Positions 3,493 through 60,500 of a DNA stretch of 64,000 bases are shown piece after piece. How positions within the stretch are numbered: the first letter of the stretch is position 1; the number at the start of each line of letters is the position of its first letter. The position numbers and the translations under genes are program-made. The stretch is from Isoetes taiwanensis (Eukaryota > Streptophyta > Lycopodiopsida > Isoetales > Isoetaceae). The notes under the pieces are model-generated. The model was not told the DNA's origin, did no database searches, and worked only from the letters and a program-made list of their open reading frames with translations. The stretch covers positions 21,416,833-21,480,832 of the forward strand of contig JAJEKV010000010.1 of NCBI GenBank assembly GCA_021234155.1, in the 5' to 3' direction.

Positions 3493-3970
3493 AGCAACCT
3501 ACCTCCTACCGCAGGATGTAGGGTCCTAAAAGAAAATTTAGTATATTGCTAGGTAGCGTAGGGTCCTAGCAGAAGCGTAGGGTACCTAGCATTCTGCTAG
3601 GACCCTACGTTACCTGTAAATAGTTACAATGTTAAAAGATAAAAGATAAATCTCATAACAGATATTCATACCTTTATGGTCATGCTCAGTTTCAAGAAGC
3701 CCAGGTTTTTAATGTTCATAAACCATAGAAATCTGGTCATCATTCTCGCGGGGCTCGTTACTTGTCATTTTTAAATGTCCCAATGCATAAGTAAATAGCA
3801 AACAAGAAGTAAGTAGCAAATAAGTAATAGCCAATGTAATGGTAGAGCAAAGGTGCTAATGGAAAACATAATGTTCAATAAATCACGAGAGGTGTAATCG
3901 CTGGTTCAATTAATTCAGTGGACTCAAAAGGATAGAGTTTCATATCCTTGAATATGATAACAGATGTTTC
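3493..3970 (-). other. element A interior (no coding)
   Basis: About 480 bp between the two terminal repeats. It starts with CAACCTACCTCCTACCGCAGG, which also opens the interior of the autonomous relative at 9607. It contains a long hairpin (3557-3609) and ends with TTCAAAGATATATA before the right repeat. No ORF of note. Confidence 0.6.
3557..3609. repeat. perfect 18-bp inverted repeat (hairpin) at element interior
   Basis: The arm at 3557-3574 (CGTAGGGTCCTAGCAGAA) is perfectly complementary to 3592-3609, with a 17-nt loop that itself repeats GTAGGGTACCTAGC. The autonomous relative carries a degenerate version near 9670-9715 (GCCTAGCACTGCTGCTAGG). The position just inside the terminal repeat suggests an RNA structure used in processing or priming; this is inference. 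Confidence 0.7.
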
Positions 3971-9606
<5,636 letters not shown>

Positions 9607-9784: not shown

Positions 9785-11860
9785 TTAGCGGATGTATCTG
9801 ATCAAGTCTTGAGCAGAGTACGTAAGGCCAGGAAAATCCTGCTTAAGAACGGTTGTCACATTTTTGCATATGGTTCTTCTGTCAAACCCATTATTGACGA
9901 ATTGTTGGATTATTTTTAACATGTCTTTTACAGCCCCACCAAGACTGCTGTGTACATATAGACAGGGCATCACCTGTGAGCAAATGACCTTACTTGCATG
10001 AAAGTAAGGGCGACAGCTATCCGCCTGAATGTATACTTTGGCATTGAAGGGTAAATTGTCTCTTTTATCAAACTTGGTAGTACAGTACACACCAGTGGCA
10101 GCATCTAAAATCTGAATCTTCATGTTTAAGAAACATGCACAAGTCCCGATTCTGTTGTTATTCCCATAGCCAATGAAATCCAAAGTTTCATTTTTTATTT
10201 CCAGGAAATTAAGGTTGTAAATCCAGGTACCAGCTTTTATATCAAAGAACTCATTTGGATTACCACAGTTAACTAGCAAGAGATCATCCATGTATCTATA
10301 AGAATCTCTAAATCTTTCTATATCAATGTATCTGCCCTCATCCACTAATCTTAGAATAAAGTTCACTTCATACCAGGCTAGATAAAGATTACACCAGCTG
10401 GGGGAGCAGGAAAAACCCATGGGTATACCACAAACTTGCTTCCAAGTTCTGCCATCATTACATAACCAGCAATTTTTGAGAAGCCAAATATTAATATCAA
10501 TAAATCTCTGGCAACTCATTTCTGACCAGCAGTCAGGTTGTTTACTTTTGCTATCCCACTTGCTCTTGAAGGCAACCTCGTTGCCATTAAATCGTTTTAT
10601 CCAAAGTTTATTTTTGGGATGTACTTTCCTTTGGTACTGGAATACTGTGTTTACAATATCATTCATGACCTGACACAAACCACTTTCACCCTCCACAGGT
10701 ATAGATTCATAGCATTTAGTCACATCAGCCACAAACAAACTATGTATCTTATTCGGGAGGTTGAGGGTCACGTCATAAATAGAGTTTACCAACCAGTTTG
10801 GGCTAAAGCCTTTCTTACAGAAAAGAGATATACCTCTACATAGATCTTTGGAAACTTCTGGCCATAGACCAATAAAGTTATTAAGACCTTCGGCTACAAG
10901 GCAAGCTATCTCAGAAAAAACAGAATTGTGAGCATTAGTGATCCATCGAAAGCTATTTTTGTGGGCCTTGTAAATGCACAGGAGATATGGTAGGGGCACA
11001 TCCTGTTCTGGTTCAAAATTTATCTCCCATAACTCTTGTATCCTTTCTATCATATTGTTTCTAACCTCGATAACTGGTATATCTGATGACATGAAGTCAG
11101 AGCTGGAGAGTCTATCAAGCGCTAAGCTTTTAGCTAGGAAGGGACACATAAAACTTGGGTTATTTGTAGCTTTGTCTATCCCAGCCACATAGAGGTTTCT
11201 CTTTACCCATTCTAGATCTTTAACAGCATCCACATCATCTTCGAGAGTGTAGTGTCTGATTTTACCAACCTCCCCTTTGAAATATTCTTTCATCATGCCC
11301 AGAGCCAGTTCACGGGCTGCTGTTTCAATGAGATGGTATTTATGGGCATCCAAAGGTCTGATAACAAACTTATGCAGAGCAAAGAACAACCTCAAACCAT
11401 CCAAGACTGAAATCATACACTCATTGATGTTGAGTTTTCGATGCGGGATGTGATTTAAGCCTTTTTTAAAGAGGCCTCTAAGGTTTTTGTTTTGAATAAT
11501 ATTCTCATCAGTGGTCAAAACATGCTGGTATTTAGGGTCAATATATCCTCTAAGAGCATTGCTAGAGCAGGGACATTTGGGTGTGCCTTTTTCAACAAAA
11601 GTATTAAAAGGCTTATAGACCATGTCTACTAATTTTGGCAGATATTTCCAGCTCAGGACAGTCTTGCTCAAGGCCAGATCACCCTCTTCACCACAAAATA
11701 GAGGAACCACCTGTTCTAGGATTTTTTTGAATCTAATAGAATCCATGAGACGAGAAACATAGGTAAGGTGAATAACGAGTTTTTTCTCAGCATTGCCACT
11801 CGTCACAATATTCAATCTGTTGTTGTGATCTTGTTTCAACCATCTACGAAGGTAGTCCAC
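9785..11860 (-). CDS. Penelope-like reverse transcriptase, 691 aa
   Basis: An intact frame encoding the RT that would copy the element. The N-terminal part carries a Cys pair (CPC, residues about 96-98) followed by QHVLTTDENIIQNKNLRGL and a KKG, the arrangement seen in Penelope-like proteins. A DK motif with ATNN follows (229-234). RT motifs then come in order: PYLLCIYKAHK (291-301), motif A DVTKCYESIP (Asp379), motif B GIPMGFSCSP (478-487), motif C YMDD (523-526), and FDKRDNLPF further on. The C-terminus ends soon after the thumb, with no GIY-YIG nuclease, so this would be an endonuclease-lacking type or need help in trans. The whole catalytic triad is present. The family assignment comes from motif order and wording; a distinct uncharacterised RT lineage is the alternative. 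The stop is followed by CAG|GTATGAC, a possible splice donor. Confidence 0.85.
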   Translation of the reverse strand: MDYLRRWLKQDHNNRLNIVTSGNAEKKLVIHLTYVSRLMDSIRFKKILEQVVPLFCGEEGDLALSKTVLSWKYLPKLVDMVYKPFNTFVEKGTPKCPCSSNALRGYIDPKYQHVLTTDENIIQNKNLRGLFKKGLNHIPHRKLNINECMISVLDGLRLFFALHKFVIRPLDAHKYHLIETAARELALGMMKEYFKGEVGKIRHYTLEDDVDAVKDLEWVKRNLYVAGIDKATNNPSFMCPFLAKSLALDRLSSSDFMSSDIPVIEVRNNMIERIQELWEINFEPEQDVPLPYLLCIYKAHKNSFRWITNAHNSVFSEIACLVAEGLNNFIGLWPEVSKDLCRGISLFCKKGFSPNWLVNSIYDVTLNLPNKIHSLFVADVTKCYESIPVEGESGLCQVMNDIVNTVFQYQRKVHPKNKLWIKRFNGNEVAFKSKWDSKSKQPDCWSEMSCQRFIDINIWLLKNCWLCNDGRTWKQVCGIPMGFSCSPSWCNLYLAWYEVNFILRLVDEGRYIDIERFRDSYRYMDDLLLVNCGNPNEFFDIKAGTWIYNLNFLEIKNETLDFIGYGNNNRIGTCACFLNMKIQILDAATGVYCTTKFDKRDNLPFNAKVYIQADSCRPYFHASKVICSQVMPCLYVHSSLGGAVKDMLKIIQQFVNNGFDRRTICKNVTTVLKQDFPGLTYSAQDLIRYIR

Positions 11861-12071
11861 ACTATCCTGTTATTTTAAGAGCCCTAATAAGTGTGTTTAT
11901 TCAATGGGGCAAACATAGAATAGGTAAAAAAGCATACATAAGACCAAGTAAAAACAACAATATAGACTGGAGTGAATACCAAATATAGCTGCTGATCATG
12001 AGTAAAAGTTGACTTGCTCATCAAAGTCTAAAATAAGACCATAAGGTAATAGATAAAAATTGCTAACCTTT

Positions 12072-13505
12072 TTAGATGTCGGACATGTCCATAGTAAAAG
12101 GTACAGATGACTCAGTCCTGTCCAAATTGCTTTTAGGCTTGGAAATAGACAGATCTCCCTGATCTGCTATGTTGTTGCCACAGTCCACGGTCGGGTATGA
12201 AGTAGATGTGACAAAGAGAACCGTATCCCCGTGCTGTTTACTCATTAATCGGGTCTCACTACGTGAAAACATCTTGGGAGGAAAGTAGCAAGCCGTCATA
12301 TTGCTGGCACTGGCTGATCCACTAGATGAGGCCCTTCTTCGGTTGTAGTTTGGAGGAGGAGCAGCATTATTCCCTTGCTGTTTGAGAACAAAAGCATCTG
12401 GATTCATCATCATTTCTGTTATAGTAACCAGATGGCTATCCCCATATTTCTTACTTAACATCAAAACTTGATCCCGCCCCAAGTCCATAGCCATACAATT
12501 AGCCGATATCTATACTTGATATAAGCAATATAAGCCTTCACAAATTTCTCAAGTGGTTGGTTGGACAAGAAGTTTACGACAAGAAGAAAAGCCCTCACAC
12601 AATCCAATTTAGGGTAGACAATGTCCAAATTATTGAGTACGAACCAAATGCCATGGTCCAGCCAAGTAATGTTCTCATTGCACGTATTCTTAGGTTGCAT
12701 ATCGCAGGCACACTTAAAATAAGGGCAGAATGATCTCCAAATTTTCTTAAGGTTATATTCCTCCTGCAGAGTGGGCAGTAAAGCCATATGGTTTTTTTGA
12801 TTGATGTACATACCATAGGGACAAACACAAGCTTTCTCAAACGTGACCATATCAAATGGTAAATCATCCAATGGTATTTTGTCCAAGCAATACTCACCTC
12901 GGTCCATCTTTTTGTTAAACTCCTCCATTTTCTTATCATCTAGATCTGCTAGAAACTTCCATGTCAGAATCGACACATGGGTGCAAGAACACCCAAGTTG
13001 CCACATTGCCACAAAACCCGGTCATTCCCCGAAGCAAAGCTTCTACCATGCTATGTGATAGCATAGGGAAATTGCCGGTATTATGCAGATCCAATCTATC
13101 TCTATAGTCACGAGCATTCTGCTCTAGATCATTTCCAATCTCTTCTCCACCTGTGACTATTGGTTCAGTAGGTTCAGGGTTATTCTCCAGCCCCATAGAC
13201 ATGCTGCTGAATAAGCTGTTACCCAAGGCTGTTCCACTTTCTTTCACAATTTTTTTGGGCGGAACTACCTTAGCCTTCTCTTTGTTCTTCTTGACCTTGC
13301 CATTCTCTAGAGGATAACTGGCTTTAAGTCTAGCTTCTGTTTTTCCAAAAACTTTCTCAAACTCCTCATCAATTTCAGTACGTACGCAGTGGATATCTCT
13401 AATACTTAGGTAAGTCTCCTCAACTATTCTTACGTACTGGGCAGGATTGCTTTTTAATTTTCTTGCCAAGACAGCCAGCCATTCATTAAAACCTAAATGG
13501 GCCAC
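12072..13505 (-). pseudogene. ORF1 of the Penelope-like element, split by two apparent frameshifts
   Basis: Three frames overlap head to tail: 13505-12936 (189 aa), 13012-12461 (183 aa) and 12494-12072 (140 aa). Each overlap (77 and 34 bp) is where the coding pattern switches frame, so they probably form one protein of roughly 480 aa. The N-terminal part is Lys-rich (KVKKNKEKAK); the central part is Cys-rich (ACVCPYG, FCPYFKCACDMQP), possibly metal-binding; the C-terminal part has a low-complexity Ser/Arg/Ala stretch. It lies immediately upstream of the RT, the usual place of a gag-like ORF1. The shifts may be true mutations or consensus errors, since nearby duplicated sequence shows such errors. 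A strong GAG|GTGAGTATT donor near 12893 also allows splicing. No known domain recognised. Confidence 0.55.
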
Positions 13506-13948
13506 GGCTGAGAGCCTACAACAAGAATCAGAGCTCTAGCTCAATGATCTTGTTATGCATGTCCTCATGATTGAGGCAACAGATCACAAGGTTGGCCAAA
13601 TTTTTGTTTGGAACAAGGCATCTAAGGTTGGCAAATCCAATCTTTTTGAGCTCCGGAATCCAGAAAGCATCAGTGCAGTTTTGTCCAGAGTAAAATTAAT
13701 AGTAGATCAAAAAATACTAGTTTATACAGATACAGATTAATCATTTAGCCAGCCAGTTCCACACATTCAAACACATATAATGGGGACCACTATCATGGCC
13801 CCAGACCATACAAGTCTGAAATGAAGAAGAGCTTTACTGTAGATAGCATGTTAAGAACTTATAAGTGTACAGAGCCATATACGGTGGAGTAGCTAACCAG
13901 AGATATATGGGGAATCAGTCCTAGAACGTAAAAAAAAGATGTTCCAAA

Positions 13949-16879: not shown

Positions 16880-18090
16880 CGTAGAGTCATCCAATGAAGA
16901 TTCTAAAAAGATTCCTCCAGATTCCCTTAGATTCTTCTATGTTCACAAAGATTCTTTATAGATTCTCCTAGATTCTCCAAGAGTTGATGAAGATTCTGCT
17001 AGATTGCTTTAGATTATATGAAGATTCTCCTAGATTCTCGAAGATTCCATGACGATTTCAAAAGATTCTCAAAGCTTTTAAAAATATTCCCTTAGATTCC
17101 CAAAGATTCTCTTAAGATTCTTCTAGATTCTCTAAGATCATGTGAAGATTCCCTTAGACTTTACATGATTCCATCAAGATTCTTGAAGATTCTATGAAGA
17201 TTCCCTTAGATTCTAAGATCATGTGAAGATTCTTTCGTGATTCCTATACATTCCCCAAGATTCCCCTAGATTCTATGAAGATTTCCCAAGATACTATCAA
17301 GATTGTTAAAGATTTTAAGAACATTCTCTTACTTTCCTAAGATTCTCTAGATTCCCCAAGATTCTATGTATTTATGAAGATTTCTATGAAGATTGCCGTA
17401 GACTTTACATGATTCCATCAAGATTCCTCTAGATTCTTGAAGATTCTATGAAGATTCCCTTGGATTCCTTTAAATTCTCAGGGATTCTCTCGTGATTCCA
17501 ATAGATTCCCCAAGATTCCCCTAGATTCTATGAAGATTTCCCTAGATTTCCCAAGATTCTATCAAGATTCTTAAAGATTTTATGTACATTCTCTTACTTC
17601 CCCAAGATCCTCTAGACTCCCGAAGATTCTGTGTATTTATGAAGATTCTTCTAGATCCCCTTAGCATTTCCTTAGATTCCTTAAGATTCTACAAAGATTC
17701 CCCTACATTCTTATGATTTTACAAAGATTCTTCAAAATTCCATCAAGATTACCCTAGATACTCAAAGATTTTAGGAAGATTCCCTTTGATTCCCAAAGAT
17801 TCTCTTGAGATTCCCATTGGTTCTCAAAGATTCTCTTGAGGTTCCCATAGATTCCCTAAGATTCTCTTGAGATTCGTTTAGATTCTCTAAGATTCTATGA
17901 AGATTCCCCTAGATTCTTTAAGCATCTATGAAGATTCCTTTAGATTCCTCGAGATTCTCGTGGATTCTCTTTAGATTCCCTAAGATTCTCTTGGAATTCC
18001 TCTAGATTCTCTAAGATCTCTAAAGATTCCCTAGATTCCTATAAATTACTACGGATTTCGTATCTAAGATTCCAAGAAGATTCTTAGAGT
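16880..18090. repeat. degenerate AGATTC array (copy 1)
   Basis: About 1.2 kb in which AGATTC recurs every 10-14 bp, separated mostly by CCTT, CTCT, TATGA and CCAA spacers. It is not a simple satellite: spacers vary, yet the array is almost base-for-base the same as that in copy 2, so it was copied as a block. Confidence 0.9.
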
Positions 18091-30224: not shown

Positions 30225-31855
30225 AAATTCGACGGGAAACTAACGTAGAGTCATCCAATGAAGATTCTAAAAAGATTCCTCCAGATTCCCTTAGATTCTT
30301 CTATGTTCACAAAGATTCTTTATAGATTCTCCTAGATTCCCAAAGATTATCCCAACATTCCTCTAGATTCTTCAAGATTCTATGCAGATTCTCCTAGATT
30401 CACCAAGATTATATGAAGTCATTCCTCTAAATTTCCTTATATTTCTATAGATTTCGAGAAATTCTCTTGATATTTTCATAGATTCCCTAAGACTCTACAA
30501 AGATTCTTTAGGATTCTACAAATATTCCTTTAGATTCTCCAAGATTCTATAGATATTCCTTAGATTGTATGAAGATTTCCCTAAATTCTCCAAGATTCTA
30601 TCAAGATTCTTAAAGATTTTATGAATATTCCCTTAATTTCCCTAGATTCTCAAAGATTCTTTTGATATTCACCTAGATTTTCAAAGATTATCCCAAGACT
30701 CCTCTAGACTCCCCAAGATTCTATGTAGTTCTACTGAATTCTCCAAGAGTTGATGAAGATTCTGCTAGATTGCTTTAGATTATATGAAGATTCTCCTAGA
30801 TTCTCGAAGATTCCATGACGATTTCAAAAGATTCTCAAAGCTTTTAAAAAGATTCCCTTAGATTCCCAAAGATTCTCTTAAGATTCTTCTAGATTCTCTA
30901 AGATCATGTGAAGATTCCCTTAGACTTTACATGATTCCATCAAGATTCTTGAAGATTCTATGAAGATTCCCTTAGATTCTAAGATCATGTGAAGATTCTT
31001 TCGTGATTCCTATACATTCCCCAAGATTCCCCTAGATTCTATGAAGATTTCCCAAGATACTATCAAGATTGTTAAAGATTTTAAGAACATTCTCTTACTT
31101 TCCTAAGATTCTCTAGATTCCCCAAGATTCTATGTATTTATGAAGATTTCTATGAAGATTGCCGTAGACTTTACATGATTCCATCAAGATTCCTCTAGAT
31201 TCTTGAAGATTCTATGAAGATTCCCTTGGATTCCTTTAAATTCTCAGGGATTCTCTCGTGATTCCAATAGATTCCCCAAGATTCCCCTAGATTCTATGAA
31301 GATTTCCCTAGATTTCCCAAGATTCTATCAAGATTCTTAAAGATTTTATGTACATTCTCTTACTTCCCCAAGATCCTCTAGACTCCCGAAGATTCTGTGT
31401 ATTTATGAAGATTCTTCTAGATCCCCTTAGCATTTCCTTAGATTCCTTAAGATTCTACAAAGATTCCCCTACATTCTTATGATTTTACAAAGATTCTTCA
31501 AAATTCCATCAAGATTACCCTAGATACTCAAAGATTTTAGGAAGATTCCCTTTGATTCCCAAAGATTCTCTTGAGATTCCCATTGGTTCTCAAAGATTCT
31601 CTTGAGGTTCCCATAGATTCCCTAAGATTCTCTTGAGATTCGTTTAGATTCTCTAAGATTCTATGAAGATTCCCCTAGATTCTTTAAGCATCTATGAAGA
31701 TTCCTTTAGATTCCTCGAGATTCTCGTGGATTCTTTTTAGATTCCCTAAGATTCTCTTGGAATTCCTCTAGATTCTCTAAGATCTCTAAAGATTCCCTAG
31801 ATTCCTATAAATTACTACGGAGTTTTCATCTAAGATTCCAAGAAGATTCTTAGAG
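30225..31855. repeat. degenerate AGATTC array (copy 2)
   Basis: About 1.6 kb of AGATTC repeated every 10-14 bp. Contains 30345-30746, absent from copy 1; the deletion junction shares AGATTCTCC microhomology. Confidence 0.9.
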
Positions 31856-48373: not shown

Positions 48374-48377
48374 CATA
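48374..48377. repeat. 4-bp target-site duplication CATA (left)
   Basis: CATA immediately precedes the left inverted repeat and recurs at 54942-54945 after the right one. Confidence 0.6.
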
Positions 48378-48500
48378 GGGTGTAAATATGGTAATGCTAC
48401 CCAAAAAAACGCGAAAGCACTCAGCACCTAAAAGCACCTAAAGCACTTGTGGTCGACAGAATTCGTGACCGCACGGTATAAATACCTTCTAGTACCTCGA

Positions 48501-48666
48501 CCTCGGTTCCCGCGCCTAAAGCTTTTCCTCAATCATTCGATGTCCCAAATTTGATCTACTTTTCTATAGCAGAGTATCATTTTCCTCGGTTCCCGCGCCT
48601 AAAGCTTTTCCTAAATCATTTGATGTCCCAAATTTGATCTACTTTTCTATAGCAGAGTATCCTTTT
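48501..48666. repeat. 83-bp tandem duplication near transposon end
   Basis: CCTCGGTTCCCGCGCCTAAA begins both units (48501 and 48584), which also share CCCAAATTTGATCTACTTTT. It probably lies in the promoter or 5' leader of the plus-strand genes. Confidence 0.9.
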
Positions 48667-48771
48667 CCCAATTTCTTCGCCCGCCCACAACATAGATCGT
48701 TTATCCTGAACTGATCTTCGCCAATCAAGCGAAATGGTAGAAGAGGCAAGAATGAGGAGGATTTTGTTGCT

Positions 48772-49047
48772 TTGCATGGTTTGTCGAACGAGGGTCCGCA
48801 GCCCCATTTGAAGTACAGTTGGCTTACAAGTCAAGTTACAAAGGATCAATGGGAATCCGCTTTGGCGGGAACCTTTCAACTCAAAGTCTCAAATCAAGGT
48901 TCATTTTGTTCAACCACATTTGAGAGGAAAATTGGAAGCTTATTGAGAGTATTTTACCCGGATGGTGTTTGTAACAATGAAGTAAGAAAACAGGTTGCTT
49001 ATGCCTTTGTTTGGGAAAACCGCCTCAAGGATTGCTTGATCCCGTAG
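48772..49047 (+). CDS. short ORF upstream of the RING-like gene
   Basis: A 91-aa frame (MHGLSNEGPQPHLKYSWLTS, ending in VWENRLKDCLIP) lies 40 bp before the RING-like frame and in the same frame, separated by a stop. It may be a 5' exon of that gene or a separate small protein. No domain recognised; the frame is open upstream to 48714 without a Met. Confidence 0.35.
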   Translation: MHGLSNEGPQPHLKYSWLTSQVTKDQWESALAGTFQLKVSNQGSFCSTTFERKIGSLLRVFYPDGVCNNEVRKQVAYAFVWENRLKDCLIP

Positions 49048-49086
49048 GGTCATCGATAAATTGGGCTTCATATGGTGCAATGAGTT

Positions 49087-50076
49087 ATGATGTACAAGAA
49101 ATGCAGGCCGAGAAAAAATCCACAAAAAGCAAAAGCTGAAATTGATACCAAACCTGATATTTCTGCAAAAGAAAATCCTAAGCCTATTCTAGATCAGACC
49201 TATTTGAATCATAACTTGCAGTTAGTGACAGAAAACTTAAAGAAGCTTGAGATAAAAAAGGCTGAGATGGGAAAAGAAATGCAAGATATTGTTGTTAACC
49301 TGGCTGCTGATGAAGAATCAAATGATAAAATTTTCAAAAGGTTGTCTGAAAAAAGAAGTAATATGGAAAAGCTTAAGTCTAGTATTGCCGAAAAGAGAGC
49401 TTTGATTAGTACAAAGGAATTGGAGCTAGAAATCACAGAATTGGAAAAGAAATTGATGTTTGAAGAGTATGCCTGTGAATCTTTGGAGTTTGTTTGCAAA
49501 CCTGGAGATCCACTTCTGCTTGTGAAGAAGGAGTCATTGGAAGCTCAGATAACTGAAAATGATGTTGAGCTAAATGCAGCAAAAGAAAATGCTAGCCTTG
49601 AAAGTCTGAGGCAGATCACCAACTCTCCTTTCTGCATCAACACCATCAAAAGAAAGCTACCAGGTTTTTTGCAAAGTTATTGTATTGCTTGTGGTTTAAG
49701 TTTTCATGATAAATACAAGATGTCCATACTTCTTGATTGTGAACATGAATATCATGTGATGTATGCTGCATTGTTGAAGGAAGGGAGATGTTTGAAATGT
49801 GAATGTAATATTCCTGAAGACCTTTTTGTTGAACTTGGTATGAGTACTCCAACAGAATTAGAGCAAGTTGCTTCTTTTGATCCTAAATTTACTCATAAGA
49901 AATCTGATGTGGGATCAAAGACAGCTCGGGCTGATTTGGGATCAAATACAGCTCCGGCCGATATTGAAGGTCTAGTTGATGTTCAGCCTGAGCAGTTGAA
50001 GTCCCCTTCTAGTAGCAGAAAGAGGAGGCTGAGACATGCAAGGGATGCTGATTTTGAGCCAGATCTTGCGAGTTAA
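49087..50076 (+). CDS. coiled-coil protein with degenerate RING-H2 finger
   Basis: A 329-residue intact frame. Residues about 45-170 are a Glu/Lys-rich coiled coil. Around residues 198-238 the cysteines and histidines fall as C-x2-C-x15-C-x-H-x2-H-x11-C-x2-C (CIAC, CEHEYH, CLKC), the RING-H2 pattern of ubiquitin ligases, except that the sixth ligand (expected two residues after the second His) is Tyr (TAT, one base from the Cys codon TGT). The tail is basic (SSSRKRRLRHARD), nuclear-like. It sits between the transposon end and the FCP1-like gene on the same strand. It could be joined to that gene by a 47-bp intron (50072-50118) that keeps frame, but such an intron is unusually short for a plant. 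Ubiquitin-ligase activity is inference. Confidence 0.6.
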   Translation: MMYKKCRPRKNPQKAKAEIDTKPDISAKENPKPILDQTYLNHNLQLVTENLKKLEIKKAEMGKEMQDIVVNLAADEESNDKIFKRLSEKRSNMEKLKSSIAEKRALISTKELELEITELEKKLMFEEYACESLEFVCKPGDPLLLVKKESLEAQITENDVELNAAKENASLESLRQITNSPFCINTIKRKLPGFLQSYCIACGLSFHDKYKMSILLDCEHEYHVMYAALLKEGRCLKCECNIPEDLFVELGMSTPTELEQVASFDPKFTHKKSDVGSKTARADLGSNTAPADIEGLVDVQPEQLKSPSSSRKRRLRHARDADFEPDLAS

Positions 50077-50132
50077 GTGATCAAGTTCGATGTTGAGTTC
50101 AAGGCAATTGAGAAGTAGTGGTAAAATTGGGG

Positions 50133-51707
50133 ATGAGAAGGCGTGGTTCTGGATGCAGTCTTGTTGAGAGTGAAGTTGAATGTGTGTTGGATACTCCAAC
50201 CAGAAAGAAACAAAAGCACTCAGTACCAAACAAGGATGCTATGGTTGAGAAGAAGAAAGGTAAGGACAATAGCAAGACCAAAGGGGTTGAAGTTGGGACT
50301 GGCAAGAAAAAAAGGGACCGAGGCCGTGCGGGAACAAGAAAAAAAATTGGGGAGGGTAGAACGTATCCATTGAGACGGAGAATGCACATCGATGTGAATG
50401 AAGACAGGGAAGAAGAGGGTGTTGAGAAGACAATTATAGAGAATATAAGGTCCACCCTTGAAGATGTAGCAAATGTAGATCCTACTGGTGCAGATACAGG
50501 TTTTGAACAAGATGGTAATGCTGCAGCCAAATCTGTACACAATGAAGGTACAAATAGTAACTTTGCAGCAATTATGGATGCTCTTAGAGGAAATTCAAAT
50601 ATTTCTTTGAGAGCACTAATTCATAAATGATATTTTAATGTTCAGGGATTCACAAAGTAGTACAACTTGATAAGGATTTAACTGTTTCCAATTTAACTTC
50701 CAGGTTTATGACTTTTTAATTTAATTTGAAGTTTTTGTGGATCTATTGATCCTGTATTCACTTAATTAATTGTCTGAACATCAGGTCTACCGAGTTGCAA
50801 AGTACAATTGTAACTGATTTGCAACTCAGCAATTTAACTTCGAGGTTATTACTCTTAATTTTAATTGTACTCTTTTCTTGAATAATTCACTGAATTGCAT
50901 GTTATTTAACTTATTAGGTGTTCTGATGTGCAAGTTGTACCTATGAAAAAGAAGTTGTTGATACTAGATCTCAATGGCGTGCTGGTTAAGAGTTATAGAA
51001 GAACCAATCAAATAAGAGAAGACCTGAGACGGCTTAGCACTCAGCTTTTGAGAACATCAACCACTAACAAATTGGTTGTGTTGAGGCCAGGTGTTCACGC
51101 ATTCTTGGAGGAAGCCTCTAGACTATTCGACCTTGCAATTTGGTCATCCATGAATGCATTCAATGTTGCAGAAGTTATTGATGTTGTCTGTCCTTTTATC
51201 AAAGGTAAACTTGTATTTGTGTGGGACCAACAATATTGTGATGAGATGCCTTTCAAATGGCCACTCGAATCTGCAAATCCAATATTCATGAAGCCACTTC
51301 ATAAGGTGTATGAAGCTTTTCCAGAATATGGAAATAATGTGGTTCTTGCAGATGATGAAGTATACAAGACATACATGTCCCCACCATTCACATCCATCAT
51401 GGTGCCTACTTTCCAAAGCCATCCTCATGATGATATTCTTGACTCTTATTTGCTTCCAATGATTAGACAAGTTGCACAGGTTGAAGACGTTTCTGCAATT
51501 TTGAAGATAAATTCTAGGCCCGAGGCTTTTACAAGAACATCCCTAGGTGTTCTGGATGCACTATTTCAGCAACAAATTGGTCAGGATCAGAGTTTATTAG
51601 TTAGAGCTTACTGCAAGGGTCAGATTAAGTGGATAGTGGATGGTTTTGGGAAACATTTCAGTGCTGATCAGTTGGAGCAGATGAAGAAATATTTGACTAT
51701 TGCCTAG
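50133..51707 (+). CDS. spliced gene: basic N-terminus plus FCP1/SCP-like (NIF) phosphatase domain
   Basis: Predicted exons: 50133-50547, 50646-50703, 50785-50844 and 50918-51707, with canonical GT-AG introns of 98, 81 and 73 bp whose phases match. The first exon is Lys/Arg-rich (TRKKQKH, GTGKKKRDRGRAGTRKK), a nuclear type. The two small exons encode similar DL..SNLTSR segments. The last exon is a NIF/FCP1-like domain of the HAD superfamily: LLILDLNGVLV, LRPGVHAFLEEASRLFDLAI, WSSMNAFNV, KPLHKVYEAF, VVLADDEVYKTYMSPP. The family dephosphorylates protein serines such as those of the RNA polymerase II tail. Here the DxDx motif is DLNGV, with Asn for the second Asp, as in some plant homologues, so activity is doubtful. 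The last exon is fully open, unlike the transposase. The start is the first ATG after an in-frame stop; it could be fused to the upstream RING-like frame. Confidence 0.7.
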
Positions 51708-51724
51708 AAGAATACTTCTTGTAC

Positions 51725-51915
51725 ATACATGTGAATTTTGTGAAACCCTTGACATAGAGGCTTTGAGACCTCAATTTTGTGAAACCTGCTTTGTAATAGT
51801 ATATGAGTGCAGATATGCCTCAATTTTGTGAAAACTGTGACATAGAGGCTGAGACCTCAATTTTGTGAAACACTTTGTAATACTATACGAGTAAAACTTT
51901 GCCTCAATTCTGTTA
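51725..51915 (+). repeat. short direct repeats in 3' region of the FCP1-like gene
   Basis: CTCAATTTTGTGAAACC-type phrases occur four times with GACATAGAGGCT between, a small degenerate tandem repeat following the stop codon. Confidence 0.7.
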
Positions 51916-52170
51916 TGTTTTGTTATCTTGTTATTTTGTTATTCTTGCTTCAAGTTTGTCCAATACTTTGAAGACATTGCAGGCCTTAAGCTAACAGATT
52001 CACAGTTCAGCTCAATTTTGTGTGTTTGCTCTTTTAACATTGCAGATATGTGTATATCACTTTGAACACATTGCAGGCCTGGTGATAACAAATATGTGTA
52101 GTGCAGATATGTGGGATGCTCAATTTTGTGTGTCTTATTCTTTTGAACAGACTGTTGTACATATTACCTT

Positions 52171-54666
52171 CTATGAGGCAGGTGGAAGACTACTCATGAT
52201 CTGCTGGCAAGTGTCTTCTGCCATGATATACAAGTTTGAGCCTTCTGCATCTGCAATCATGTCAAATTTAGAAAGTCTAACAAGATGGCTATATACACTG
52301 GCAACTGGTTTGTTCTGCAATAGTTGAAACCTTAGACCACCATCGATTTGTTTGTAATAATGTCCCGTCACAATAACTTCTTCGACCCCGAATACATTTC
52401 CCCATCCATCCTTATAATTTTCTAGCAAAGTATTCTTTGCTTCAGTGCATTTAAGTACATGTTTTCCCATGTGAGCTAGCAAAAAAATTCCATAGAAGAT
52501 CCTTGCCCATTCTTCCATAAAATCTACCAAGAAAGTGGAATGGTCTCGAAGACTTGAATTGTGAAGAACATCCATCACTCCAAAACACATGTTTTTTATA
52601 TTCAACTCCAATACTTTGCAACCAATCAGCATGCATTTGTAGACAATGTTGGACATATTCTGTGTCATGTGTTTTGTCATCACTAATATAGAAATGAGTT
52701 TCCTTCACAATACCTTGGAGACTTTGTTTCCTTTTTTCTTTGGCCAAGTTCTTGTTCTTCTTGCATGAGTTCTCTTCCTCTTTCTTTTTTCTTTCTTCTT
52801 CTTCTTCCTCTTTCATCCTCCTGTAGGTTATATGCACTAGAATTGACACCTGGTCAGTATGCCAATGACAGGATTGAGCTTCTTGTTGGATCTTAAATCC
52901 ATAATTCTCAGCAAAATCTATGACAGAAACAATGGTATCATCTTGAAGTGTTGCCAAGCATTTCCTGAATTCCTTGGCTTGCCAATGAGCTCTATAATTA
53001 TGAGGTACAAAAGATTTCAAAGTATTTCTTGCATGCTCATTAAATTCAAAAGGGCTACCCAATTTGTAGGCCAATTTTGTAACCTTTGGAGGTTTCTTAG
53101 ATGACTTCAATGTCTTCTTTCTTTGGACTTCTACCTGCCATGTTAAGGCCAATTTATCAGCTCCTGATATGGAAGTCATATGATTGAATCATATTTAATG
53201 AAGTCACTAAATGCACTTTGTAATCTAATTTGAAAGTCATTACCTTCTCAAACACTTTCCAATTCACATTGTAAGTTGCTCTTATTCCTCTCCTTAGGAC
53301 ATGTTGGCAGCCTGCAATACATTATAGCAAACATGGTAAATAGAAAGCAAAATTATAGGTTTGAAACAAAGGAAACCATGTACTCACTTATTTAAACCAC
53401 ATTTTGTACAAGTCTGCATCAGACACGCATGCTTATGCCACTCATCACTCTCATCCTTTGGGCAGACCACCATTCTCCAATAATCACTACTTGATCTGAT
53501 GATCTCCTTAGCCATGCAGATTAGACCTGGTCCACAAACCTTGCACTGACACTTACAATCCTTATGAACACCATAAGGATCTGTCCTCATATTGTTGATG
53601 GCCTGCCTTGCAAATTCTGGTATTGGCAACAACAAGTCTCCCTTTCTTGAAGTTTTCTTACATAGCTTGGCGTCAGTTTTTCAAAAGCCTGCTGGGACAT
53701 CTTTATATTAGGATGTTCCTTCTTGAAAGCAAGGTACAATTGTACCTGAACACAATAACAATAATAAATTTAGTTATTTTATAAAGTGAATGAAAGAATT
53801 AGTGCACAACATTTCAAATTTCTGGTCGAAACTATTACCCGTAAATCTCTAGCAAATGAATAGGATGATCAATTTTATCACCATTTTCAGCCAAATGCTT
53901 CCTCACATGCTTCTTATAAGGTGAGACTCTAGTATTTTCATCCCAAAACTTCCTCACCGTGGATATTTCTTCACTGAAAAATCGTCACTTCTTCTCTTCC
54001 TTCCAAATATTGACCAAGGGCCGAGCTTCACACTCTGCAAAATATACATCTTCTAAATGCCATGGCAATAGTTTTTCTTGGAAATGATAGAACCCTTGAA
54101 ATTGCAGATTGATTAATCCCTCCCCGTCAAGATGCCGCCATTTGAAGGGTGCTCTTTCTTGCTTGGAGGACATCGGTTGTTCTTTGCATTTTTGTGCCTG
54201 CATTGTCTCCCCTAACATTCACAATCATGGTTTTCATTATAGCAATATCCCGGGATCCGGTACATCCGCTTCCAATGGCAAATGTTTGTTTCTCTTGAAA
54301 AGTCTTTGAAGAACTTTCCCTTTATCCAAATCCTCGAAACGTTCGACAATGTGATTAAAAGAATCATCTAACTCTTTTGAGAGTTCCTGCAATCTTCTTT
54401 CACTAAGCAATTGTTTTTCTTCCTCCGTTTGGTGGAATGTTTTCCTTTTCCCTTTCTTTCATTCTCTTTCTCGATTCTCTTTTCCTGTTGGCTTCAAATT
54501 CCAGATAAATTCTTCTATTCTGATCATCAAGGCTTTCAGAATTGGCCGTAAAATGGAGGTGCAATGGAAAACTGGAATTGGGATTGGGATTGGGATTGGG
54601 ATTGGGATTGGGATTGGGATTGGGATTGGAATTAGAATTGAGAATTGCCAGTGAATTTTCAGCCAT
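52171..54666 (-). pseudogene. DDE transposase gene (Sola-like?), multi-exon and frameshifted
   Basis: Minus strand. The N-terminal exon starts MAENSLAILNSN with an Asn-Pro repeat and a basic EF.ANRKRESRKRMKEREKE stretch (54666-54403). Middle pieces follow (54218-53985; 53635-53384), the second with paired cysteines (CKCQCKVCGPG and CTKCGLNK) ending at a GTGAGTAC donor. The core (53179-52451) carries DFAENYGFKIQQE, HWHTDQ, FYISDDKTHDTEYVQHCLQ, FWSDGCSSQFKSS and NFFASSHGK; the Asp residues of ISDD and WSDG are the likely catalytic ones. The frame then changes, and the C-terminal part continues from about 52450 to 52171. The enzyme would move the surrounding transposon. At least one frameshift breaks it. 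Exon borders are approximate; the superfamily is tentative. Confidence 0.7.
54579..54627. repeat. (GGGATT)n hexanucleotide repeat inside transposase exon 1
   Basis: About eight units; on the minus strand they encode alternating Asn-Pro. G-rich on the plus strand. Confidence 0.95.
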
Positions 54667-55256
54667 GGTAACGAAGCTTGGGAAGAATGACAATCTAAGA
54701 AAGAAAACTTTCCTCAAGAATCCCGCCAACTTGAGATCCCGCCAAACATAAGGATTGCTCTGGCAATTCGCGCGGGGACATCCATGTCATCGATCCCTCC
54801 CCAACCGGAACATGCATACTATTTCTGGAGTAACAACCCCCGAGGTTGTTGAACGAAAATTCATCGAGTAGAAAGCACCTCAAGCACCTAAAGCACTTGT
54901 CCGGATGGTGCTTTTTGGGTAGCATTATCATATTTACACCCCATACACGTTTGAATAGTAACGCAAGTTAATTGAAATAAGGTGGTTCTTATATTTTGCT
55001 TTAGTGGAAAAAGAGCAGCTATTTGATAGCTGTATCAAAAACACTCATACCAATATTTTGCCATACACTCATAGCTCAATGTTAAATATATTCTTGCTAT
55101 CTTTATATCTGCACAAATTGCATGTTCCTCTTGAAACTAATCCATGTTCTAGCATGAACCATGCTTTCTTATACATGTGTTCATCTAGAATATCCAAGCT
55201 TCTTAGTAATTAATATATAGATCCTTAAAGTTTACCTATGTTTGCTTTTGTTAGGG

Positions 55257-55750
55257 CCCGAAGGGCCCAAAAATTTTTTTGGTATAACAACCAACACATA
55301 ACTACCATTAACATTAATTAACACAAACCATTGAGTCCAACACATTTAAATTAAAATCCCCCTTAAACCCCCTTTGGTTTGGGTGCATATTCACACGGGG
55401 GGTGACGTAGGGCAGCGAGAGCCCGTATAATTACGTTTTGCACGTACAAAATCAACACCATATAGTATATTGCCTAAAATCTTATAGTATTTTACAAATT
55501 TTGTTATACAGTATAACAAATTCTGTACATCTATACCCCACAAACGAGGAACTTTGTGTACGGTGTAGATTAAGGAATAAGGGGTGAATATGCCTATCCA
55601 ACAGCTCTCATTCCCGGAGTCACCCCCCGTGTGAATATGCACCCAAACCAAAGGGGGTTGAAGGGGGATTTTAATTTAAATGTGTTGGACCCAATGGTTT
55701 GTGTTAATTAATGTTAATGGTTGTTATGTGTTGGTTGTTATGTGGGATAC
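55257..55750. mobile_element. foldback (long inverted repeat) element
   Basis: The arm from about 55284 to 55424 (ATAACAACCAACACATAAC onward, with GGTTTGGGTGCATATTCACA) is the inverse of about 55606-55744. The middle (55425-55600) is unique. A relative of one arm sits at 46447, each preceded by AGGGCCCGAAGGGCCC. No coding; the superfamily is undetermined. Confidence 0.75.
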
Positions 55751-57588: not shown

Positions 57589-60500
57589 TTCGCCTCTGCA
57601 AGTTTTTTATTTGCTTCCATTTCTTTCAGGTTCACTTCGGTTTCTACTTCTTCCATAGGTGAAGCTTCCATGGGTGATTCTGCCCTACTAGATTGTATGG
57701 GTTTTCCCTGTCCACATGCATTACCTCCTGTCCCTGCCCCTAACATTGCAGCTTTCAATTTTCGGATAGCTCCGATAGCGCTAACGCTTGCCTTGGCAGC
57801 CAGATCTTCCCCTGTAGTTGCTTTACCTACTACATTGTCTTTTGCTCCCTTTGGGGAATGGTTTATACTATGTGAAGCAGGAGTAGCAGCAAAAGGGCCT
57901 AGATTTATATCAGACAGTTTATGGAGATGATTTACCTTGTGCTGGGCAGAAGCCCCAATTACTGGGTCAGGATTGATAGAAGCCCCATCTTCTGGGGATG
58001 ATTTTCCGGCCCCTGAATCATTCCATTTGGCTATTGTCCAGCATGAACTAGCGTTGGCAGGGCGAGTAGGAGGCCATGGGGCCCCGTTGTGCACACCTGG
58101 GTCCAACCCAGGTCGGTTTCCGACAGCCTCCAAGGCTGCTACTACTGCTACGTTCGTTTCTTCCCTACTACTGCCAAGGGCTCCATTCTTCCCTTTGCTT
58201 CCTCCACTATTATTCTTTTCTGTCTCAGCATCTATCCTTGTCTGGAGCTCATCTATTCTCTTCCGGGCAACATGAAAAGGAAGAAAGGGTCTCCAAACAT
58301 CTCCCCATGAATTATAAAATCCTTAGCTGGAATATCAGGGGGGTAAAATCCTCGGAATACAAGAAAAGCAGATTATCAAACGCAATCAAGGAGATAAATC
58401 CAGACATCATATGCCTGCAGGAGCATAAATGTAAACAGGGGGAGATACACGGTTTGTTCAACACAATAGGTAAAGAATATGTGGGCGTTGCTGCAGTAAA
58501 AGATACCTCTAGTGCGGGCACTTTGATCGCCTGGAAGAAGGATGTAAAAGTATGTGAGCCACAGGTTGACAGGTTTGGTAGGTGGGCTATAATTCTATGG
58601 CAACAAGAAGGTAGAATATGGGGTCTGGTGAATATTTACGCCCACAACAACCCCAGGGGCAGAGGTGCTTTATGGGCCACTATCAGACATAGATTAAAAG
58701 GATTTGGAAGTCAGGTAGCTTGGCTAATGACAGGGGATTTCAACATGGTGGAGGCGGCCGAGGATAGACAAGGGGTGTCGTCAGAAATTGTACATGGGTT
58801 TGAGAAGCTTCAGTGGTGTAAATTGGTAGAGGATATGGGTTTTATGGAGCTGGAGGGAGATAAGGGATATACATGGTGTAATGGATGGCTGGGAGCAGGA
58901 AGGACGTACGCAAGGCACGATAGATGCTACATGAATGACGTGGCTTTCTCCATCCTTCCAAACCTTCAAAGGTCCAATCAATTAAAGAATGCTATCTCCG
59001 ATCATAATCCACAAGTGATATCGACTAAGAAGTGTCAGTTTAGAACTTCTAAGACAATATTCAAATTAAATACCAGATATTTGAAAGACCCAGATTTTGT
59101 GGAGACCTGCAAAAGCATATGGCAATCGGCTTTTAGAACAGGAACTGGTATGGAAACCATGATAACAGCTCTTGCAAATATTAAAAATTATGCTAAAAGC
59201 TGGGGTAGGGCTAAAGTGCAAAAAGAAAGGGAAGAACTGGATTCCCTTTATGGCCAACTTCTCTCACTTAGAGCATTGGGCCCCAATGATGGGATAGAGG
59301 AGAAAAGGATGATAGAACAGATCAAGACATTAGAAGAGGTCAAGATAGCTGAAAACAGATGTAAAGCTGGATTGACCTGGCTAAAAGAAGCTGACAAATG
59401 CACAAAGTTCTTCTTCCGGACAGCTAAAGAAAAGAAGAGATCTTCCACACTATCATCCATCACTCAAAATGACGGCACAATTCTCAAATCTCCAGGAGAT
59501 CTCAAAAGGTATCTATATAACCATTTCAATGCTTTCTTTGGAGAACATAACTTACCATTTCAAGAGACTTTCGAAGCGCTGGTGGTTTCAAAAGTCTCGC
59601 CCATAATGAACTCTAGCCAGCAAGATACGTTAAGTCTTCCCCTCTCTATTGAGGACCTTCAAAAGGCTACTCGTTTACTGGCTCCAAATAAATGTCCGGG
59701 TATGGATGGAATTCCCATAGAATTCTATCAATGCAATTGGGAATGGGTTAAGGATGATGTCTTCTTTATATACACAGACTTTATGCAAGCTGAAAATCTA
59801 AATCCAAGATTGAACACGGGTTGTATTTCCTTGGTTCCCAAGAGTAAGGAGCCAAGCACAATCAATGATTGGAGGCCCATCACACTTTTATCTGCATTCT
59901 ATAAAATCATAGCTAAGGCTATGGCAGAGAAGATCAAGCCAATTCTGGCTGAAGGCATCTCACAAGCCCAATCGGGTTTTCTACCAGGCAGGAGTATCCT
60001 GAGCAATGTCGTAGCAGCATTCGAAGGTTTGCACTGGGCTAGAAAAACAAGACACTTTACCAAAGCTTATGACAGTATCAGATGGAGTTTCCTGCACAAA
60101 ATGATGCTCAAGCTGGGTTGTGGAATTTTTTTTTCAGAAGGGGTCATGAAGCTTCTGCGATCTGCTCGAGCTTCAGTCCTATTCCAAGGTGAACCCTCTC
60201 CAATATTTGACATAAAAAGGGGCATCAGGCAAGGATGCCCCTTAGCCCCATTCCTCTTCAATATTGCAGCAGAAGCACTTTCACAAATATTCTGCAAGCC
60301 TCTAAGAAGGCGGTATGATTCAGGGGACTAGAAATGTTGGATGGCTCTCAACAAATATGTAACCAATATGCATCTACACATTTCTATTTATAGAGGCAGA
60401 GGAAGAGAATCATCATGTGCGAGGCAAATTACTAGCCTCCTTCTCAATAGCTTCGGGATGTCTCATAAATTGGAAGAAATGCGCAAGATAATGACCTCTC

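Follow-up and report, generated by a model that had tools for sequence, protein, structure and literature searches.

The window analysed here, i.e. a stretch of 64,000 nucleotides from Isoetes taiwanensis (assembly GCA_021234155.1, contig JAJEKV010000010.1, positions 21,416,833 to 21,480,832), contains a 6,564-bp copy of a DNA transposon at positions 48378-54941, which carries sequences for a RING finger and for a domain of the NIF family beside those of its transposase. The RING-NIF gene very probably represents standing accessory equipment of a whole transposon group, as judged from related sequences of the same genome. The family would be equipped with two genes converging on each other, one for a transposase of several exons and one accessory; the protein predicted for the latter has, from its N-terminal domain onwards, a coiled coil, a RING-H2 finger and, at the C-terminus, a NIF domain (HAD superfamily, SCP-like). 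The explanation taken as a whole, covering also what this protein may do for the element, is modestly favoured.

The window copy is a decayed member of a cut-and-paste DNA transposon family. Its terminal inverted repeats of 30 bp (48378-48407, plus strand, and 54912-54941, minus strand) differ by a single mismatch, with no match in 100 shuffles, and the target-site duplication CATA flanks the element both on the left (48374-48377) and on the right (54942-54945), so that the repeats and duplications described in an earlier note, made from the letters of the window alone, are borne out. Subterminal repeats are found close to both ends and, apart from the NIF exon, the copy is broken. Just to the right of the element (55284-55741), there is a further inverted repeat of 123 bp, its arms being 98% complementary and 212 bp apart. 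A DNA search of the genome, comprising 1,658,258,908 bases in 1,110 contigs, with the element yielded at least 67 matching pieces; 20 further copies were taken, forming with the window a near-copy set of 21, which is biased, since most of the 20 places were chosen as both halves matched. Identical 4-bp flanks border 14 of the 15 near copies having both ends (window included), the exception being L022, and such flanks match also in L029 (TTAA) and L031 (TCTT). The length of the 15 two-ended copies is 7.13-7.48 kb in seven and 3.38-8.12 kb in the rest. The loci L029, L031, L032 and L033 share the element start GGGTGTAAAT, which was not found in L030, L034 and L036. The locus L024 (C1030:8322877-8327259) harbours an element of 3.38 kb, which has its two ends and is bordered by an AATA duplication, and in which the transposase core is missing and an open RING frame (598 aa) together with a part of the NIF is retained.

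Concerning the persistence of the cargo, the NIF frame and the RING exon are each present in all 21 near copies, the latter covering only 66 codons in L028; the transposase core occurs in 20, L024 being the exception. The protein searches, of which only the best-scored candidates are considered, listed 150 transposase and 147 NIF matches. A converging NIF match within 15 kb accompanies 70 of the 150 listed transposase matches, no other orientation being seen at that distance; when most of the NIF matches of a second query and 34 Pfam matches are added, a converging NIF within 6 kb is present at 85 of the 150, compared with approximately 0.07 expected from uniform placement, and one near pair is not converging. 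Eight loci were also read whose transposase match had no listed NIF partner when chosen, and a NIF is present at seven of them (L030, L031, L032, L038, L039, L040 and L042), being partial in L030 and L032. The RING was detected there by search in L031, L032 and L038, with its tail only in L040, and by eye in L030; at L039, L041 and L042, the sequence covered is too short to judge. Transposase, RING and NIF are all present in L029, a listed pair, and in L033, a NIF match without a listed transposase, as well as in two (L034 and L036) of the four loci chosen by their Pfam NIF match, a transposase not having been found near the other two, L035 and L037. The sequences of L034 and L036 share with the near family 27-33% identity in the NIF and 29-43% in the RING pieces; the converging order of transposase and NIF is kept in relatives whose identity is approximately 45% in the transposase and 30% in the NIF. 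The cargo, whose presence in other copies the earlier note had proposed to check, therefore proved to be present in near copies and in divergent subfamilies. It should be added that L025 and L028 compared with L009 and L013 exhibit a synonymous distance (dS) of 0.53-0.65 in the NIF and of only 0.03-0.09 in the transposase core; with the NIF diverged and the core near-identical, the two halves have therefore been swapped between subfamilies, the place of the cargo being kept.

The ratio of nonsynonymous to synonymous distances (dN/dS), averaged over pairs with dS of at least 0.2, is 0.25 for the NIF (55 pairs), 0.42 for the RING (22 pairs) and 0.28-0.42 for four transposase segments (15-17 pairs each). 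In individual comparisons, the NIF gives 0.21 between the window and L025 (p=1e-17) and 0.24 between L034 and L036 (p=1e-19), and the RING 0.39 between L025 and L013 (p=2e-11); the RING ratio of L034 and L036, 0.69, is not significant. Close pairs reach 0.61-0.83. The purifying selection on the cargo envisaged in the earlier note is thus seen between subfamilies and gives way to near-neutral values within one subfamily, which may be read as a constraint that acts between subfamilies, with copies drifting near-neutrally after insertion. Several points weigh against the reading of a conserved and functional RING-NIF gene. The far pairs behind the above means are not independent, the NIF resting on L025, L026 and L028, the RING mainly on L025 and the transposase mainly on L026, and all the comparisons lie within one genome. 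In the subfamily of L029, L031 and L033, the ratios amount to 0.69-0.87 for the NIF and 0.52-1.05 for the RING pieces, none being significant, nor does the upstream portion of the NIF exon exhibit significant constraint. There is no NIF within the 1.8 kb read at L041, the best Pfam zf-RING_2 score among the relatives (20.8 bits) stays below the cut-off of 27.3, and mini-exon A of the splice plan presented below is, between L013 and L025 (45/58), not better kept than the introns (65/80 and 52/69).

With regard to the domains, the RING-H2 finger (49681-49800, plus strand) has in the window copy a Tyr in place of the sixth ligand Cys (codon 49762-49764). The eight-ligand pattern C-x2-C..C-x-H-x2-H-x2-C..C-x2-C is complete at 16 distinct places other than the window, i.e. 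at 22 of the 42 loci, six locus pairs being the same place; 11 of these places belong to the 20 near copies and five to deeper subfamilies, the pattern being lost in the remaining near copies, window included. The NIF exon (50918-51707, plus strand) is open until its stop, just as the earlier note had described its well-preserved phosphatase exon, and passes the PF03031 cut-off (68.8 bits versus 21.8; E=5.6e-19), as do the NIFs of L031, L035, L036 and L037. The name FCP1-like phosphatase given there is, however, too strong. The profile of the NIF matches UBLCP1 (2.1e-10), CTDNEP1 (8e-8) and SCP1 (2.6e-5) better than FCP1 (0.0047), and in NCBIfam the L036 NIF matches the dullard-like (9.3e-11) and HAD-IIID (8.8e-9) families, both below the curated cut-offs. 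Moreover, all 11 transposon-type NIFs compared, including those from L035 and L037, possess the motif I DxNGV (DLNGVLV in the window), the FCP1/SCP-type DxDx(T/V) being absent from each of them, whereas DxD is present in three NIFs that score highly in Pfam and are for this reason regarded as host genes. In these enzymes, the general acid/base is the second of the two Asp residues of motif I. Since DxN replaces DxD, the phosphatase activity of the NIF is doubtful and a binding role plausible.

The accessory protein could accordingly be imagined as a nuclear RING ubiquitin ligase, the DxN NIF of which would mainly bind host proteins that act in transcription or silencing and are phosphorylated, thereby allowing expression and movement of the element. 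The idea of the earlier note that the cargo serves the element is supported by persistence and constraint; such an anti-silencing mechanism, deduced from the domains and by analogy with VANC and KIU in Vandal MULEs (Mutator-like elements) as given in the available part of PMC13317346, is offered only tentatively. The fully specified version, i.e. an old plant lineage with its own fusion of a RING ligase and a phospho-binding pseudo-phosphatase, produced as two splice variants and marking host silencing or transcription proteins in order to escape repression, is a distinctly speculative suggestion and unlikely. A comparably tentative alternative sees in the accessory protein a direct partner of the transposase—in binding the subterminal repeats, in nuclear import or in assembling the complex—with RING and NIF as non-enzymatic interaction domains. 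The accessory gene always adjoins the transposase, the subterminal repeats lie close to both ends, exon 1 encodes basic stretches, and the DxN casts doubt on catalysis by the NIF; yet the RING ligands are retained where the frame is open, which suggests a function of the RING itself, and the pairing is not strict, as the diverged cargo of L025 and L028 stands by a near-identical transposase core.

The standing accessory gene can be laid out on the plus strand of the window as follows. Exon 1 (48734-50547), covering the N-terminal domain, the coiled coil, the RING-H2 finger and a basic stretch, has its start and donor placed from L013 and L024; in the window it is broken by frameshifts and stops, the RING open reading frames (ORFs) ending at 49047 and 50076, and its pieces form one open frame in L024 (598 aa) and in L013 (561 aa), the frame of L013 having a stop before the end of the exon. 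It would be followed by the GT-AG intron 1 (50548-50645), mini-exon A (50646-50703, phase 1 to 2) and mini-exon B (50785-50844, phase 2 to 2), with the NIF exon as the last. The donor GT comes directly after Glu-Gly, in phase 1, in three divergent subfamilies (GAAG/GTACAA, GAAG/GTATTC and GAGG/GTGAGT); then there is a mini-exon of phase 1 to 2, joined in two subfamilies by another of phase 2 to 2, before the NIF exon, which is entered in phase 2. The six splice sites keep GT or AG in 20, 19, 20, 17, 19 and 19 of the 21 near copies, and mini-exon B, identical at 36/36 positions over the compared part, exceeds the introns in conservation. Because the splice sites are matched in phase in three subfamilies, the two plus-strand genes of the earlier note, both of which exist as a RING-like ORF and a NIF exon, are probably one spliced gene for a RING-H2–NIF protein.

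If intron 1 is retained, a short tail follows up to a stop at 50628-50630, which would give a RING-only form. The tail of L013 is identical in 76/83 positions with L025 and in 75/82 with L028, compared with 65/80 and 52/69 (L025) and 66/80 and 55/74 (L028) for introns 2 and 3, and a similar tail is present in a second subfamily; in L026, it is no better kept (76/83) than the introns (63/70 and 67/74). Two products of the accessory gene, the fusion and the RING-only form, are thus likely from these alignments. The same tail can be used in favour of two separate element genes never joined, the RING frame stopping behind it, and in the near-family NIF exon there is an ATG just ahead of the domain; this possibility is rather unlikely in view of the phase-matched GT-AG introns after Glu-Gly in three divergent subfamilies and of the 17-20 near copies out of 21 that keep each site.

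The last alternative, according to which host genes or parts of them were captured a single time and lack a function, and which the earlier note had considered as captured host sequence, is very improbable: gene capture is frequent in plant transposons (according to the accessible part of PMC13317346) and the window copy is broken, but the capture is contradicted by the presence of the cargo across deeply divergent subfamilies, at saturated synonymous distance, by the constraint on the NIF between them and by the DxD, not DxN, of the three presumed host NIFs. A one-off transduplicated host gene was likewise rejected, the cargo not being absent from the relatives of the element.

The transposase-like ORFs are located on the minus strand, as the earlier note had stated. 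They consist of an N-terminal exon (53840-54666), frameshifted in the window copy and open in L018 (313 aa) and L025 (349 aa), a Cys-rich exon (53384-53769) seen as two ORFs with one frameshift, the core ORF (52451-53188) with the motifs DFAEN and SDGCSSQFK, and the remains of the last exon (52171-52462), i.e. the C-terminal part. In comparison with other copies, approximately 0.63-0.66 kb of the transposase is gone at a deletion junction (52460-52463), which cuts the HGKGEHDG motif of those copies; the transposase alignment contains the DFAEN, SDG and HGKGEHDG motifs. The core of L034 and L036 is about 45-47% identical to that of the near family by local search and 55% in the multiple alignment. 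Neither the window transposase ORFs nor the RING ORF gave anything above the Pfam cut-offs, and there was no family match for the transposase in Pfam or NCBIfam. Its profile had a single weak match among solved structures, a La-related protein (E=0.029). The AlphaFold2 models of two single window sequences are of no use, with a predicted local distance difference test of 37.6 and 40.5, the latter for the transposase. Among viral contigs, for transposase and NIF, and among prokaryote genomes, for the transposase, only pattern candidates for relatives were obtained, none of them confirmed. The motifs of the transposase may resemble those of Sola, whose transposase is of the DDD type with an RNase H fold.

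NIF ORFs of another type, with the motif DMNGVLL, are found in L035 (C1027:14498500-14506700; 3882-7928) and L037 (3417-4391), their PF03031 matches having E=8.5e-21 and 2.4e-19, respectively, and the family transposase not lying nearby; the one in L035 adjoins several long ORFs without a Pfam match, ParB-like by eye, and several more Pfam NIF matches are similar to these two. A second mobile family with a NIF is thus possible. At L041 (C930:3013600-3015400), the expected place of the NIF is occupied by an ORF of 128 aa, in which a motif resembling DNA methyltransferases was noticed by eye; it may represent a nested insertion or different cargo. Elsewhere in the window, there are a 694-aa reverse-transcriptase ORF (9785-13535, minus strand; RVT_1 E=1.6e-4, below the cut-off), Penelope-like by eye and accompanied by three more long ORFs without a Pfam match, a 753-aa ORF of the LINE (long interspersed nuclear element) type with endonuclease and reverse transcriptase domains (58070-60331, plus strand), and long GATTCY-rich repeat arrays with 10- and 31-bp spacing (16899-18027 and 30263-31785), stretches of one array recurring in the other, roughly 13.8 kb away, with 99-100% identity.

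From accessory genes that transposons keep for a long time, one can learn what such a selfish element requires of the host. If true, the conservation of the RING-NIF gene in three or more divergent subfamilies would suggest that transposon control in a seed-free vascular plant is targeted through ubiquitination and phosphorylation, and it supplies a list of domains amenable to testing. As a caution for annotation, such elements account for dozens of the NIF domains in this genome, which may be miscounted as host genes.

Concerning known systems, the element is probably of the Sola kind, i.e. Sola-like with its membership unproven. Sola transposons are described in the available part of PMC10741241 as having 4-bp duplications, inverted repeats of 11-1124 bp and a size of mostly 2-9 kb; the 4-bp duplications, the 30-bp repeats and the 3.4-8.1 kb over 15 copies all fit, and the size of about 7 kb and the seed-free plant hosts are shared as well, whereas no RING-NIF accessory gene is mentioned in that part of the source. 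No paper combining Sola, FCP1 and transposon, and no title on such an element, was found among the open-access papers searched, where the one paper sharing 'NLI interacting factor' and 'DNA transposon' concerns magnetic fields and promoters. The phosphatases UBLCP1, CTDNEP1 and SCP of the HAD superfamily resemble the transposon NIF in their profiles but have DxDx(T/V) as motif I, in contrast to the DxNGV found here beside a RING within a transposon. The Kolobok lineages with accessory nucleases, a helicase or KolX (PMC9587614) and Sola2 with Fanzor1 (PMC3627910) are likewise DDE transposons defined by a kept second protein; these partners are mostly nucleases or helicases, no RING or NIF being mentioned in the accessible parts of both sources. 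The Vandal MULEs, whose VANC and Ulp1-bearing KIU genes cause hypomethylation of related copies according to the available part of PMC13317346, belong to another transposase superfamily, and their Ulp1 is a protease, as opposed to the RING and NIF here; they are, nevertheless, likewise plant DNA transposons with a long-kept accessory gene, and KIU brings in a domain of a ubiquitin-like pathway.

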